DNA from: Desulfosarcina widdelii
Lineage (GTDB): Bacteria > Desulfobacterota > Desulfobacteria > Desulfobacterales > Desulfosarcinaceae
Assembly: GCF_009688965.1 (NCBI RefSeq)
Contig: NZ_AP021875.1
Span: forward strand, 124,001-188,000
Reading direction: 5' to 3'
DNA: 64,000 nt
Below are positions 59,654-64,000 of the stretch, in pieces. The stretch's first letter is position 1; every line of letters begins with the position of its first letter. A program made the position numbers and the translations under genes. Under the pieces are notes generated by a model, which saw nothing but the letters and a program-made list of their open reading frames with translations, did no database searches and was not told the origin of the DNA.

Positions 59654-59728
<75 letters not shown>

Positions 59729-59761
59729 AAATTAAGTCCTAAAAATTCAAGTTTTTATAGT

Positions 59762-59790: not shown

Positions 59791-60042
59791 CTTTTCTAAC
59801 TTCTCACCTGTAAACGTCACTCAGCGTACAGAAATACTCTAAAAGTACCCTTTTCACCTACCAAGTCCCATCAAAATTCACAACACCCCCGATCTACATA
59901 AAAGCCCATGCCGATTAGGATCTGTTGGTTTTGATCTTAAAATTTCTGCGGAAAAGTCACATCAATTGATGAAACCAAAATTGCGAAACATAAAAATGAA
60001 AAAGTTGTTGACAAACACGATTATAATCTATAGGTGTCAATT
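59791..60042. other. AT-rich boundary before the accessory element
   Basis: About 250 bp without a gene. It contains a perfect 12-bp palindrome CATCAATTGATG (59960-59971), which could be a regulator site, and a TTGACA box (60008-60013). No second tRNA-Cys 3' fragment is visible inside the window. Confidence 0.4.
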
Positions 60043-60044
60043 AT
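60023..60044 (+). promoter_or_regulatory. Operator-like 22-bp motif, copy 1
   Basis: ATAATCTATAGGTGTCAATTAT contains ATAAT/ATTAT arms and overlaps the ribosome site and first base pair of the MerR-like gene. It matches 60542-60563 at 18 of 22 positions. Confidence 0.5.
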
Positions 60045-60525
60045 GAATGATGGCACTAAAAAGATAGGAAGCATGCAGTTCACGACAAAGGACATCGAGA
60101 ACCTCTGTGGATTGAAGCAGAATACGCTCCACCTTTATATTCAAGCGGGCGCACTTACACCTGACATCGATCCTGGAAAAGGAACCGGAAAAACGCGCCT
60201 CTTGTCAGGAATCAACTTTGTCCAGGCTGTCATCATTGCAAATATGATCGATCACGGTCTGCCACGCAGGGCAATTGTGGAAATGATGAAAAGCTTAAAC
60301 CAGGACCGCGGGCGCTTGGATCCAGATGAACTTCCAAATCATGGGACGGTCTATGTTGCGTTTTTTAAGATTCGAGGGCGGTGGGTCCATAGCTTTTTAG
60401 ATCAAGATGAGAGCGGGAGGATTTTGTTTGCGGATGTTCTTGGCCTTGCCGGGTTTTCACATCTTTTCAATTTGTCCCATATTTTAGGGGCATATGCTGA
60501 AATAGTGTTCAAAAAATACAGTTAA
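60043..60525 (+). CDS. MerR-like DNA-binding regulator
   Basis: The 160-residue protein has an N-terminal MerR-like helix-turn-helix (FTTKDIENLCGLKQNTLHLY, then IQAGALTPDIDPGKGTGKTR) and a helix HGLPRRAIVEMMKSL. A C-terminal half of unknown fold follows. No metal-binding Cys set. I chose the ATG at 60043, with AGGTG six bases upstream, over GTG at 60034. The operator-like motif covers its start, suggesting self-control or control by the XRE protein. Confidence 0.7.
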   Translation: MNDGTKKIGSMQFTTKDIENLCGLKQNTLHLYIQAGALTPDIDPGKGTGKTRLLSGINFVQAVIIANMIDHGLPRRAIVEMMKSLNQDRGRLDPDELPNHGTVYVAFFKIRGRWVHSFLDQDESGRILFADVLGLAGFSHLFNLSHILGAYAEIVFKKYS

Positions 60526-60581: not shown

Positions 60582-60773
60582 ATGCATTTCAACACTTCAT
60601 TGCTGGTAGCCATCAAAGAAAAGGGATGGACTCAAAAAGAGTTTTCAGCAATTGCCGGTGACCATCCAACTTTTGTTTCCAGAGTAATCAATGGATGGAT
60701 CAATCTGGACGATGCTCGCAAGGCCAAATATGCGAAGGTTCTGGATTGCGAAGTCGGCGACCTTTTCGACTGA
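60582..60773 (+). CDS. XRE-family small repressor-like protein
   Basis: The 63-residue protein is almost only a helix-turn-helix domain (LLVAIKEKGWTQKEFSAIAG, then PTFVSRVINGWINLDDARK). It resembles Cro/CI-type regulators of phages. ATG at 60582 follows GGAGG by six bases. The operator-like motif directly upstream suggests autoregulation. Confidence 0.8.
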   Translation: MHFNTSLLVAIKEKGWTQKEFSAIAGDHPTFVSRVINGWINLDDARKAKYAKVLDCEVGDLFD

Positions 60774-60779
60774 AGAATC

Positions 60780-60998
60780 ATGAGCACTCAAGGCGATCAA
60801 AAATACCTCACAGCCACCGAAGCGGGCGAATATATCGGCGGTCGATCCGCTGGAGCCGTTCGCAATTTGGTCATGCGAAAGGCAATCCCTTTCCGCAAGC
60901 CTGGCGGTCGCCTTTTATTCATCCGAGAGGAACTCGACGAATGGATACAAACTTCCAGCGGTATCAAAATAGACGAGTTACTTGAAAAGAGAAGATGA
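60780..60998 (+). CDS. Excisionase-type HTH protein
   Basis: The 72-residue protein has an HTH_17/excisionase-like winged helix (YLTATEAGEYIGGRSAGAVR, then FRKPGGRLLFIREELDEWIQ). Such proteins bind DNA bends at attachment sites or act as small regulators. It is 6 bases after the XRE gene. No integrase is visible in the window, so the excision role is inferred only by type. Confidence 0.7.
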   Translation: MSTQGDQKYLTATEAGEYIGGRSAGAVRNLVMRKAIPFRKPGGRLLFIREELDEWIQTSSGIKIDELLEKRR

Positions 60999-61060: not shown

Positions 61061-62470
61061 ATGGCCGAACATGTAAAATTACCTAACGACGCTGACCTTG
61101 AACAGTCGGTTCTGTCTGGGATGCTCTTAGATCCAGAATCTGCCGAGACTGTTTTTCAAATCATTTCACCCAACGATTTTTATCAAACCCGCCACCAGAT
61201 CATCGCCCAAACGATCCACGATCTCCAGAGCAAAAACGATCCGTATGACATCACCATCGTTGCGCTGGCCTTGAGGGAAAATAGTCAGTCAAAGCAGGTT
61301 GGGGGGGCTGCCTATCTCAAAAAAATCACCATGGAAGCGCCAGTCCCGACCAGCGTCAAATACAGTTGTGAAAAACTGGCAAGCCTTGCCACCAAGCGGA
61401 AGCTGGCAGAGGTTGGCAGCAGGATAATACAGGTGGCCACGTCAAGCAACGGTGACGGTGACCCGTTGGCTTTTGCAAAGGATCTCATCGCTGGTGTCGC
61501 CAAAAGTCAGACCGCCGATCGCGCTCAGTGTGATTGGGAATGTTTGGCAGACTTGCAGGGAAAAGAGTTCCCTCAGCCCAAATGGATCGTGCCGGGCATC
61601 TTGGCCGAAGGTTCCACCATTATCGGCGCACCTCCTAAGATCGGCAAATCGACCCTTTGCGCGAATATCGGCATATCCGTTTCCACTGGCGGTAAGGCGC
61701 TGGGCTGTTTCGATGTTGAAAAAGGCAGCGTCTTCTACATATCGCTCGACGATAAGTCAGAACGGCGCCTCAAGGGACGCATTGAGAGGATGCTGCCGGA
61801 ATACAATACCACCTGGCCATCAAACTTTTTTTACCGTACCGACTTCCCCAAAGCCGATGAAGGTGGCATTGAGATGTTGCGGGGCACACTTGAGAAACAC
61901 CCCGATACCCGCCTGGTGATCATCGACACCATGTACAAATTCCTATCTGGCAAGCGCGACCGCCAGAAAAACGCCTACGAAATAGACGTCGACCGCATCA
62001 CACCAATTGCCACTCTCGCCACGGAGGCCGGTGTATGCATCCTATTAATCCACCACACGACCAAAACGCGATATGCAGACCCGTTTGATTCCCTAAGCGG
62101 CAGTATTGGCGTTCAGGGAACCGTTGATGATCTTATCGTGATCGAGCGTGATCGCACCGGGTTTAAGTTGTCAACCCGCGGCAGGAGCCTTGATGACAAA
62201 GAAATCATCATCGAAAGGCACGAACCAACCTTTACCTGGCATTACAAAGGGGAGGCTTGTGAGGTCGTGGACACAGACAACCAGCAGGCAATCTTAGATG
62301 CTTTACGCGACGACGGCGGCAGCATGTCACCAAAGGAGTTGATGAAGGCCACCGGTTTGAAGAGAAGAACGCTCATGTACAACCTCAACCGTTTCTGTGA
62401 GCAAGGAATAGTAAAAACCATCGGATACGGACAATACATTATAACGACCCTGCAAGAGGAGAGAGATTAA
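61061..62470 (+). CDS. DnaB-N / RepA-type ATPase (element replication helicase-like)
   Basis: The 469-residue protein has an N-terminal DnaB-like helical domain (PNDADLEQSVLSGMLLDPES, about residues 8-27; DFYQTRHQIIAQTIHDL). It then has a RecA-like ATPase of the AAA_25/RepA type with Walker A IIGAPPKIGKSTLCANIG (about 188-205), Walker B LVIIDTMYKFLSG (about 286-298) and LLIHHTTKTR. A C-terminal winged-helix follows (SPKELMKATGLKRRTLMYNL). It is neither a plain DnaB nor a plain RepA but joins parts of both. An iteron-like array follows directly, pointing to replication initiation or helicase loading. Confidence 0.75.
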   Translation: MAEHVKLPNDADLEQSVLSGMLLDPESAETVFQIISPNDFYQTRHQIIAQTIHDLQSKNDPYDITIVALALRENSQSKQVGGAAYLKKITMEAPVPTSVKYSCEKLASLATKRKLAEVGSRIIQVATSSNGDGDPLAFAKDLIAGVAKSQTADRAQCDWECLADLQGKEFPQPKWIVPGILAEGSTIIGAPPKIGKSTLCANIGISVSTGGKALGCFDVEKGSVFYISLDDKSERRLKGRIERMLPEYNTTWPSNFFYRTDFPKADEGGIEMLRGTLEKHPDTRLVIIDTMYKFLSGKRDRQKNAYEIDVDRITPIATLATEAGVCILLIHHTTKTRYADPFDSLSGSIGVQGTVDDLIVIERDRTGFKLSTRGRSLDDKEIIIERHEPTFTWHYKGEACEVVDTDNQQAILDALRDDGGSMSPKELMKATGLKRRTLMYNLNRFCEQGIVKTIGYGQYIITTLQEERD

Positions 62471-62492: not shown

Positions 62493-62671
62493 TTTTCACA
62501 GTTTGCACAGTTTGCATGGTTTACACACCTTGCACACTTTACACAGTTTTAATGGGAAGTGTGCAAAGGGTGGCCTTAAGTGTGCAACAACTGTGCAAGG
62601 GGTGTTTTGAAGAAAATGCATTGTTTTTAGGATCTTATTATGAAGTGTGCAAGGTGTGCAGGGTGTGTAAT
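62493..62671 (+). repeat. Iteron-like array of 9-bp units (putative origin)
   Basis: Six head-to-tail 9-bp units (TTTGCACAG-type) fill 62493-62546 without gaps. Three single inverted units (GTGTGCAAA-type) lie at 62559-62567, 62580-62588 and 62591-62599. Three tandem inverted units lie at 62645-62671. Most are one or two mismatches from the DnaA box TTWTNCACA. A T-rich run precedes the array at 62474-62481. The position between a replication ATPase and a helicase fits an element origin. Cys-rich translations of this stretch on both strands are treated as repeat artefacts. Confidence 0.6.
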
Positions 62672-62769
62672 AAATCCAAGTTTGCCGCTGCTCGGCCATT
62701 CCAGCGGCAAACCGGATGCCCCCGGTGCCGGCCGGGGGCGTCCACCTCAACCGCTTAACAGGTGACATT

Positions 62770-64000
62770 ATGCAGACCGAAATAAGCAACACAACCCACT
62801 TGATCGGTGCCCCTTCTCGGGTGGTTTCCCAAATCAAGGAACGGTTGACTTTCGTCAACCCAAAATGGCTTGAAAACGACCGCATGGGCCGCTGGAACGG
62901 GGAAACTTCCAGAGTGCTCAAGTGCTACGACATCGACGATGACGGCTGTCTTTTGGCGCCCCGCGGATTTACAGGCCAACTGCTGGCCATGCTCAAAAAG
63001 GACGGAATCTCACCATCCCTTATCGACAACACCCGCGAACTGGACGCTGTTGATTTCCAGTTCCAGGGATCGCTGCGCCCATTCCAGGAGCGAGCTGTTG
63101 CTGACATTCTGCCGCGTCGATTCTCTACCCTGGCTGCTCCAACCGGTAGCGGCAAGACCGTCATGGCCTTGTACCTCATCGCTGAGCGCCGCCAGCCGGC
63201 CCTGGTGGTTGTTCACACAAAGGAGCTGTTGAACCAGTGGATCGACCGCGCCGAGCAGTTCCTTGACATCCCCGCTGAGGAGATTGGCATCATCGGAGCC
63301 GGGAAACGCACCATCGGCAATCGTATTACCATCGCTACCGTGCAGAGCCTTTATAAGTGCTCTCAAGACGTCTATCCGTACATAGGGCATCTACTTGTTG
63401 ATGAGTGCCACAGAGCCCCCAGCAGGACATTCACCGAGGCCGTCACGGCTTTTGACTGCCGGTACATGCTGGGCCTGTCCGCTACGCCCTGGCGCCGTGA
63501 CAAGCTGAGCAAGTTGATTTTTTATTATCTGGGCGACGTCCACCACCAGGTTGACAAAGCCGAGCTACAGAATGCCGGCCATATCATGCGCGCCCAGGTC
63601 ACCACCCGTGAAACGAATTTCATTCCCTATTGCGACCCATCAACGGAATATTCGGCCATGCTGCGCGAGCTGACAGCGGACTATGAACGCAATCGCCTTA
63701 TCGCTGCTGACGTTGCCAGTCAGATTGGCAACGGAGTAGCCCTGGTACTGTCCGATCGAAAAGAGCATTGCCGATCACTGGCATCGATCCTTGATAAGCA
63801 CCATGGCATTGAAGCCGCGGTGCTCACCGGAGACGTGCCGGCGAAGCAGCGCGAGGAGATCGTTCAAATGATCAACCGCGGCGATGTAAAGGTTTTGGTG
63901 GCGACAGGTCAGCTCATCGGCGAGGGGTTCGACTGCAAGCACCTAAGCACGTTGTTCCTGGCCACGCCGATCCGGTTCAGCGGCCGACTCCTGCAGTACG
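62770..64000 (+). CDS. SF2 helicase, XPB/UvsW-like (truncated by window end)
   Basis: ATG at 62770 follows AGGTGAC. About 410 residues are visible with no stop. An N-terminal domain of about 110 residues is followed by the helicase core: LAAPTGSGKTVMALYLI (Walker A), HTKELLNQW (motif Ia), VDECHRAP (DECH box), LGLSATPWRRD (motif III), and VLVATGQLIGEGFDCKHL (motif V). The layout resembles phage UvsW/XPB helicases that unwind branched DNA. It fits a replication module with the upstream ATPase and iterons. Confidence 0.85.
   Translation, partial: MQTEISNTTHLIGAPSRVVSQIKERLTFVNPKWLENDRMGRWNGETSRVLKCYDIDDDGCLLAPRGFTGQLLAMLKKDGISPSLIDNTRELDAVDFQFQGSLRPFQERAVADILPRRFSTLAAPTGSGKTVMALYLIAERRQPALVVVHTKELLNQWIDRAEQFLDIPAEEIGIIGAGKRTIGNRITIATVQSLYKCSQDVYPYIGHLLVDECHRAPSRTFTEAVTAFDCRYMLGLSATPWRRDKLSKLIFYYLGDVHHQVDKAELQNAGHIMRAQVTTRETNFIPYCDPSTEYSAMLRELTADYERNRLIAADVASQIGNGVALVLSDRKEHCRSLASILDKHHGIEAAVLTGDVPAKQREEIVQMINRGDVKVLVATGQLIGEGFDCKHLSTLFLATPIRFSGRLLQY

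Follow-up and report, generated by a model that had tools for sequence, protein, structure and literature searches.

A 64,000-nucleotide stretch of Desulfosarcina widdelii DNA (contig NZ_AP021875.1, positions 124,001–188,000; the window, numbered from its first letter) contains an array of twelve 9-bp-type units directly 3′ of the gene for a putative initiator ATPase and ahead of a superfamily-2 (SF2) DNA helicase gene. ATPase gene, array and helicase gene belong to an integrated mobile element. The array is probably the replication origin of that element, bound by the C-terminal winged helix of the neighboring ATPase.

Anatomy and periodicity of the array

Direct reading and a repeat search resolved the array into six forward units phased at 9 bp (starts at 62493, 62502, 62511, 62520, 62529 and 62538), followed by three scattered and three phased units in reverse orientation (Table 1). 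The third forward unit (TTTGCATGG) is degenerate, the reverse units are TTGCACA-like 7-mers and the right edge of the array falls at about 62672. Between the scattered and the phased reverse units lies an AT-rich stretch, within which GGATCTTAT stands at 62630, 16 bp ahead of the reverse block. Two hairpins separate the array from the SF2 helicase gene and could be terminators or single-strand initiation signals.

The lag-9 periodicity at 62493 (38/54) was the highest for this lag anywhere in the window. In 100 first-order Markov simulations of 64 kb, the lag-9 mean was 27.1 and the maximum 31, with 0/100 reaching 38. A three-unit pattern, allowing up to three mismatches, occurred at six places in the 7.3-Mb host genome; four were registers of the window array and two were lone three-mismatch matches elsewhere. 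The initial annotation of this DNA had described the same twelve units, directions and phasing, which direct reading, the repeat search and the lag-9 simulations confirmed, and the flanking ATPase and helicase genes were also as it had claimed.

Domain architecture of the ATPase

Pfam and a structural model divide the ATPase into a DnaB-N domain (residues 7–106), an AAA_25 RecA-fold core (about 162–398) and a C-terminal winged helix (about 399–466). The closest solved protein by profile was RSF1010 RepA (PDB 1g8y, E = 2e-13). An AlphaFold2 model based on a 60-sequence alignment gave mostly pLDDT >90 for the core and winged helix and a poor N-terminus, and its best Foldseek matches include DnaB and RepA helicases and RAD51-type proteins. 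L096 was omitted from the 60-sequence alignment (A2). Pfam domains were also scanned in 60 family members, comprising the window and 59 viral-contig clusters. AAA_25 was present in all 60, whereas Prim-Pol (7), PriCT_1 (4), DnaB-N (3), RepB_primase (2) and Toprim (2) each occurred in few, so the N-terminus appears to be exchangeable. The C-termini of the 60 members match various winged-helix families.

Recurrence of the 9-bp phase beside homologous ATPases

Genes encoding AAA_25 and a C-terminal winged helix were found in genomes of the host's phylum, in viral contigs, on an actinomycete plasmid and in an Ardenticatenia metagenome-assembled genome, the last found by its array. The window combines this domain pair with opposed 9-bp-phased sets just 3′. 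The locus set of 94 (L020, L021 and L087 left out) was collapsed at 70% identity to 74 clusters and, minus L094, which is without DNA after the gene, gave 73 non-redundant loci; the alignment-based viral-contig scan had confirmed 123 relatives, the best 80 being retained. Lags of 4–17 were scored over the 350 bp after the winged helix and compared with 100 dinucleotide shuffles.

Lag 9 was the top lag in 41 of the 73 loci and exceeded all 100 shuffles in 37, the runner-up being lag 12 (10/73). In control stretches, lag 9 was top in 4/73 and above shuffles in 2/73 inside the gene, 8/67 and 2/67 at +1000 to +1350, and 8/55 and 3/55 at +1800 to +2150. The set includes the window and L070, which was found by its array; without both, 37/73 becomes at least 35/71. 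An inverted two-unit block beat all 40 simple shuffles in 25 of 34 arrays. Relative to the ATPase stop codon, 19 of the 34 arrays lie after it, 3 overlap it and 12 lie in the open-frame tail. The initial annotation had held that recurrence beside the ATPase would support an origin and that absence beside homologous genes would refute one; phased 9-bp arrays proved to recur there well above controls, though not at every homologue and with different letters.

The units of homologues are unrelated in letters, including GGGAACAAC, GATCAC-type, TGTAACCCC and others. L085 and L086, whose ATPases are 38 and 37% identical to that of the window, have repeats in a 9-bp phase where the ATPase gene ends; their units are unrelated to those of the window: GGGAACAAC and GGGTAGGAG, the latter with inverted copies. 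Plasmid 5 of Tsukamurella tyrosinosolvens has a clear two-block array after its AAA_25–winged-helix gene. Within the arrays of L167, L151, L015 and L016, a fixed short core is combined with variable filler. A contiguous conserved core within the unit was not established across the 34 arrays (core minus rest 0.30 versus 0.26 for permuted positions; 17/34 above their own null).

The window ATPase as a single query found no close relative in viral contigs (22 pattern-matched stretches, none confirmed), and the best winged-helix/AAA_25-type identities to it in sets of 395 and 389 genomes were 36–38%. Single-sequence scans for relatives of L116 and L099 returned two loci each, from contigs already in the set. 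Three phased TTKxCACA units were found in 39 stretches of genome contigs and 4 of viral contigs; in these 43, the window ATPase as query detected a relative at L070 alone, to which the family profile added only a weak match at L046 (E = 0.007). Pfam analysis of 20 neighbor proteins at 12 of the 39 loci recognized AAA_25 by L070, DUF3987 by L066 and Rep-type proteins by L059 and L064, the others being housekeeping, regulatory or unrecognized. Because arrays with the same letters rarely adjoin family ATPases, the family is marked by the 9-bp phase and not by the letters of the unit.

As a separate observation, three Firmicutes contigs (L056, L059 and L064) carry three phased TTTACACA units; neighbors in L059 and L064 match RNA_helicase, and L064 also has a Rep_OBD match.

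Among eight public phage and plasmid records, lag 9 was top in three; two of those three are near-duplicates, with the best window >370 bp past the frame. The Caldicellulosiruptor plasmid pATHE01 (L172) encodes an AAA_25 ATPase whose last 70 residues are, by eye, unlike a winged helix, and lag 9 is not its top lag. This is the outcome that a cognate initiator–iteron model would predict, in one case judged by eye.

A syntenic cousin with different units

Locus L014, in genome G254 from the same order as the host, encodes an ATPase 31% identical to that of the window, with an SF2 helicase match at E = 7e-124. Of 108 loci, truncated and duplicate ones among them, that were searched with proteins of the window's element, it alone has the same SF2 helicase beside an array. 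Its layout follows the same order as that of the window: a forward block in 9-bp phase comes first, then three reverse units, an AT-rich stretch with GGATCTTAT and three reverse units phased at 9. In both loci GGATCTTAT begins 16 bp ahead of the last block, and within 400 bp of the winged-helix end it occurs only in these two of 94 loci, the 9-mer having been picked after comparing both. The units differ, TTGCACA in the window versus GATCAC-type in L014. A kept scaffold with changed letters is predicted by a cognate initiator–iteron pair but not by DnaA boxes. The G254 locus also has a longer recombinase (416 residues) upstream.

The integrated element

The 50-bp attachment (att) repeat that begins inside tRNA-Cys recurs beyond the window at contig positions 192070–192119 (G000:C1; window-equivalent 68070–68119), which places the array inside an integrated element of about 8.39 kb. 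After the tRNA, the element (L003) encodes in order a MerR-like protein, a Cro-like helix–turn–helix (HTH) protein, an HTH_17 protein, the ATPase, the array, the SF2 helicase, a RuvC-like resolvase (phrog_159), unknowns, a protein that weakly matches HTH and the terminase small subunit, and a partial tyrosine recombinase. Of this recombinase (L003:8525–9055; window-equivalent 67525–68055), beside the right att copy, the C-terminal catalytic half alone was recognized; the missing N-terminal half suggests that the element is a deletion derivative. It may have been a prophage or a satellite. The element also encodes a glycine-rich protein of 349 residues (L003:6275–7324).

Table 1 Features of the array, the ATPase gene and the integrated element in the window.
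Feature	Position	Strand	Details
tRNA-Cys, integration site of the element	59654–59728	+	ARAGORN
Left copy of 50-bp att direct repeat	59681–59730		Begins inside tRNA-Cys; unbroken run of shared 16-mers
MerR-like regulator, weak	60034–60525	+	MerR_1, E = 0.005, under Pfam cut-off
Small Cro/C1-type HTH protein	60582–60773	+	Pfam HTH_3 and HTH_26 above cut-off
HTH_17 excisionase/AlpA-like protein	60780–60998	+	Pfam HTH_17, E = 3e-9; TIGR01764 slightly below cut-off
Putative initiator ATPase, 469 residues	61061–62470	+	Pfam; array directly 3′
Winged-helix coding segment, proposed iteron-binding domain	62255–62458	+	Pfam HTH_24, residues 406–452; model helices/strands, 399–461
Forward iteron block, six units 9 bp apart	62493–62546	+	TTTTCACAG TTTGCACAG TTTGCATGG TTTACACAC CTTGCACAC TTTACACAG
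Three reverse units, unphased	62560–62600	−	Starts 62560, 62581, 62592 (spacings 21 and 11 bp)
AT-rich stretch, proposed melting region	62604–62645		74% AT
Reverse iteron block, three units 9 bp apart	62646–62672	−	Starts 62646, 62655, 62664
Two hairpins between array and SF2 helicase	62680–62712, 62714–62743		Inverted repeats, arms 100% and 92% complementary
SF2 DNA helicase	62770–64000	+	Pfam ResIII, E = 5e-26; phrog_16, E = 4e-71; end at window-equivalent 64131

Unit specificity and opposing evidence

Units were compared by eye within four small sets of closely related ATPases. In one set they changed along with the winged helix: L103, L112 and the pair L116/L118, with AAA domains 78–92% identical, have three different units; their winged helices are 48–63% identical among the three and 89% identical within the unit-sharing pair. 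L089 and L090 also agree. In a matrix test of 47 loci with the motor held constant, the partial correlation between unit and winged helix was 0.29, with 0/2000 permutations as high. This correlation is no proof of covariation, because it is carried by near-identical loci, and covariation was rejected as general proof on that ground and on the counter-example of L099, L110 and L114.

Several observations weigh against an origin bound by the winged helix of its own ATPase. Lag 9 was not the top lag in 32 of the 73 loci and not above all shuffles in 36. DnaB genes served as a control lacking the winged helix; lag 9 was top in 4/18 of them (scores 17, 19, 22 and 23 of 36), and in a second treatment of nine of the 18 it was top in 3/9 but above shuffles in only 1/9. 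The 12 of 34 arrays in the ATPase open-frame tail could have a coding role. The L099 group, read by eye, goes against a simple rule: L110 and L114, with winged helices 60% identical, have one unit in common, but L099 and L110, at 74%, differ. Beyond the largest cluster (L121), 11 close pairs give r = 0.01, partly through errors in automatic unit picking (L161 and L165, with identical winged helices, score 0.20). The window element (L003) and L070 have similar units at 17% winged-helix identity, L070 having been found by that very pattern. Finally, the window copy of the element may be inactive, as its recombinase looks truncated. The winged helix nevertheless appears the likeliest binder, by its position, domain type and precedent and not by statistics.

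Alternative explanations

The alternative that survives best, though we consider it unlikely, is that the array is an operator with no origin function, bound by the ATPase or by a different HTH protein of the element to control transcription of the helicase operon. Its position directly upstream of the SF2 helicase gene and the three further HTH-type proteins encoded nearby, one a weak match, would suit such a role. The downstream gene is not kept, however, with the SF2 helicase in L014 only of the 108 loci, yet arrays recur, and opposed sets around an AT-rich stretch suit an origin better. An origin could also act in regulation.

We find it rather less likely that the units are DnaA boxes bound by host DnaA in a DnaA-driven origin. 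The initial annotation had read the units as DnaA-box-like, most being one or two changes from TTWTNCACA. Ten of the twelve do lie at one or two mismatches, but the other two lie at three and none is exact, although six exact nine-mers occur in the 64 kb on both strands. With 101 nine-mers there within one mismatch, the resemblance is weak on its own. At homologous loci, the syntenic cousin included, unrelated units occupy the same position in the same phase. This makes DnaA boxes unlikely, and the binder is more plausibly the element's own ATPase than host DnaA.

A centromere-like partition site bound by a ParB or CopG-type protein is very improbable, as no ParA or ParB was recognized by Pfam or phrog among the 10 element proteins scanned. 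We give still less credence to tandem-repeat noise or a slippage-prone, functionless coding repeat: such units do occur in reading frames elsewhere (TVQ repeats in L007; L009 and L010) and a 9-bp period preserves the frame, but the lag-9 excess is absent from control stretches, coding included, 22 of the 34 arrays lie after or across the stop codon, and recent slippage is disfavored by the inverted blocks and by the fixed core with variable filler.

Phased 9-bp repeats were also seen in other settings. The viral-contig protein at L007:1276–2217 has C-terminal TVQ repeats encoded by a 9-mer of this kind (ACTGTGCAA); these are probably coding and have no link to origins. Four gammaproteobacterial contigs (L053, L060, L072 and L078) have phased TTTCCACAG arrays in a frame of about 290–310 residues, which could be a recurrent coding repeat. 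At L009:462–631, close to the end of a viral contig of 102 kb, about two dozen 9-bp units (TTTGCACAG with its variants) stand in tandem.

Proposed mechanism and wider occurrence

In the origin that we favor, several copies of the ATPase would use their C-terminal winged helices to bind the 9-bp units, in two opposed sets around the short AT-rich stretch. Binding would position the RecA-fold motors, RSF1010-RepA-like and probably hexameric, to melt that stretch and load; the downstream SF2 helicase and RuvC-like resolvase would act later. The unit sequence would be specific to an element or a close group; what is kept is the phase of 9 bp, the opposed arrangement of the sets and their place just 3′ of the initiator domain. 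The initial annotation's placing of an origin beside the ATPase is thus supported by recurrence at homologues, origin activity itself being a prediction.

The 9-bp phase may reach further. Lag 9 exceeded all 100 simple shuffles after 9/20 DUF3987 genes (top lag in 9/20; L191 and L199 are textbook examples) and 6/14 DUF927 genes (top lag in 5/14), with 1/9 and 3/9, respectively, for DnaB genes in that comparison. The 9-bp pairs of P4 crr point the same way. Two results count against a general 9-bp rule: D5_N loci exceeded shuffles in 5/20, mostly through low complexity (top lag in 3/20), and a winged-helix profile trained on AAA_25 proteins misses most other C-termini. VapE-like proteins (PF05272) were found in 0/218 genomes. 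These counts, from small samples and simple shuffles, are a lead. We regard as tentative, and as somewhat more doubtful than credible, a rule in which an initiator helicase of any motor type (AAA_25, DUF3987, DUF927, P4 alpha, possibly Cch2) that carries a C-terminal DNA-binding domain has opposed 9-bp-phased iterons after it, domain and unit changing jointly under a constant phase.

Replication origins in phages and integrated elements could be found blind to sequence, by seeking a 9-bp phase after an initiator gene instead of a motif. How an initiator switches specificity under a fixed geometry, and why a spacing below one helical turn persists, become testable questions. One possible driver of unit change is origin-targeting nucleases, as described for phage-inducible chromosomal island-like element (PLE) satellites in passages of PMC8263062.

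Comparison with known replication systems

Neither a phased array beside AAA_25–winged-helix genes nor a conserved 9-bp phase was found in searches of open-licence papers, which is weak evidence of absence; passages of a lactococcal phage helicase paper (PMC8965321) contain nothing on such arrays. Individual components have counterparts. RSF1010 RepA resembles the window ATPase in its motor domain, being the best solved match by sequence and also found by fold, but its 279-residue chain matches the motor part only (profile 76–239). The iterons of RSF1010 are longer and are bound by a separate protein.

In phage P4, the crr iterons lie directly 3′ of alpha in both orientations, 45 bp from the alpha stop. 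The annotated type 1 repeats of crr form a first pair with a 9-bp spacing and a second pair, in the opposite orientation, with an 18-bp spacing. A separate structure has been solved for the C-terminus of alpha (1ka8, residues 671–770); we take this domain to be a winged helix that binds the type 1 iterons. P4 differs in having two to three iterons per set and, about 4.5 kb distant on its linear record, a further annotated replication origin. To our knowledge, P4 alpha combines primase and helicase and has a motor of another type than RSF1010 RepA; no primase domain was recognized by Pfam in the window ATPase, nor any in the other nine element proteins scanned.

PrimQH proteins, in the sections of PMC5862659 that describe them, join an interchangeable P-loop ATPase (RepA, DnaB, MCM, VirE, DUF927 or DUF3987) to a C-terminal winged helix for which origin recognition is suggested; origin sequences are not identified in those sections. 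Their N-terminus is an archaeo-eukaryotic primase, in contrast to the DnaB-N of the window ATPase, although 7/60 family members do match Prim-Pol. In PLE RepA of Vibrio cholerae satellites, the DNA-binding domain and the origin covary and function only as cognate pairs, as passages of PMC8263062 report, but with a RepA_N domain and three iterons of about 30 bp. Through its C-terminal domain, Cch2 from the staphylococcal cassette chromosome SCCmec binds short direct repeats immediately past the end of its gene, and the putative origin has three 5-nt iterons in a 23-bp region (in the relevant part of PMC7581432). This spacing would fit a 9-bp phase by arithmetic alone (5 + 4 + 5 + 4 + 5). Cch2 differs as a 3′-to-5′ helicase that the same part of PMC7581432 compares with Cch, MCM and D5 and not with AAA_25, and in the three iterons of its putative origin.

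The origins of phage-inducible chromosomal islands (PICIs) sit 3′ of rep and have an AT-rich region between two sets of iterons, a layout stated in a passage of PMC6092414 to be common to no other known replicon. The C-terminal domain of the Rep of Staphylococcus aureus pathogenicity islands (SaPIs) recognizes the origin, according to the part of PMC7581432 on this protein. The window shows the PICI-type layout, plus three extra reverse units between the forward set and the AT-rich stretch; the likeness is one of layout and position. PICIs differ in having a primase homologue (pri) beside rep, of which the 10 scanned element proteins hold none. The motor of PICI/SaPI Rep also belongs to a different family from that of the window ATPase. 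The initial annotation's proposal of an origin of an unusual kind has to be tempered: a two-set layout directly 3′ of an initiator is known from PICIs, and 9-bp pairs are known from P4 crr. The window array would extend the PICI-type layout to another motor family, and its origin is most likely P4/PICI-like in working and a distinct family by motor type.
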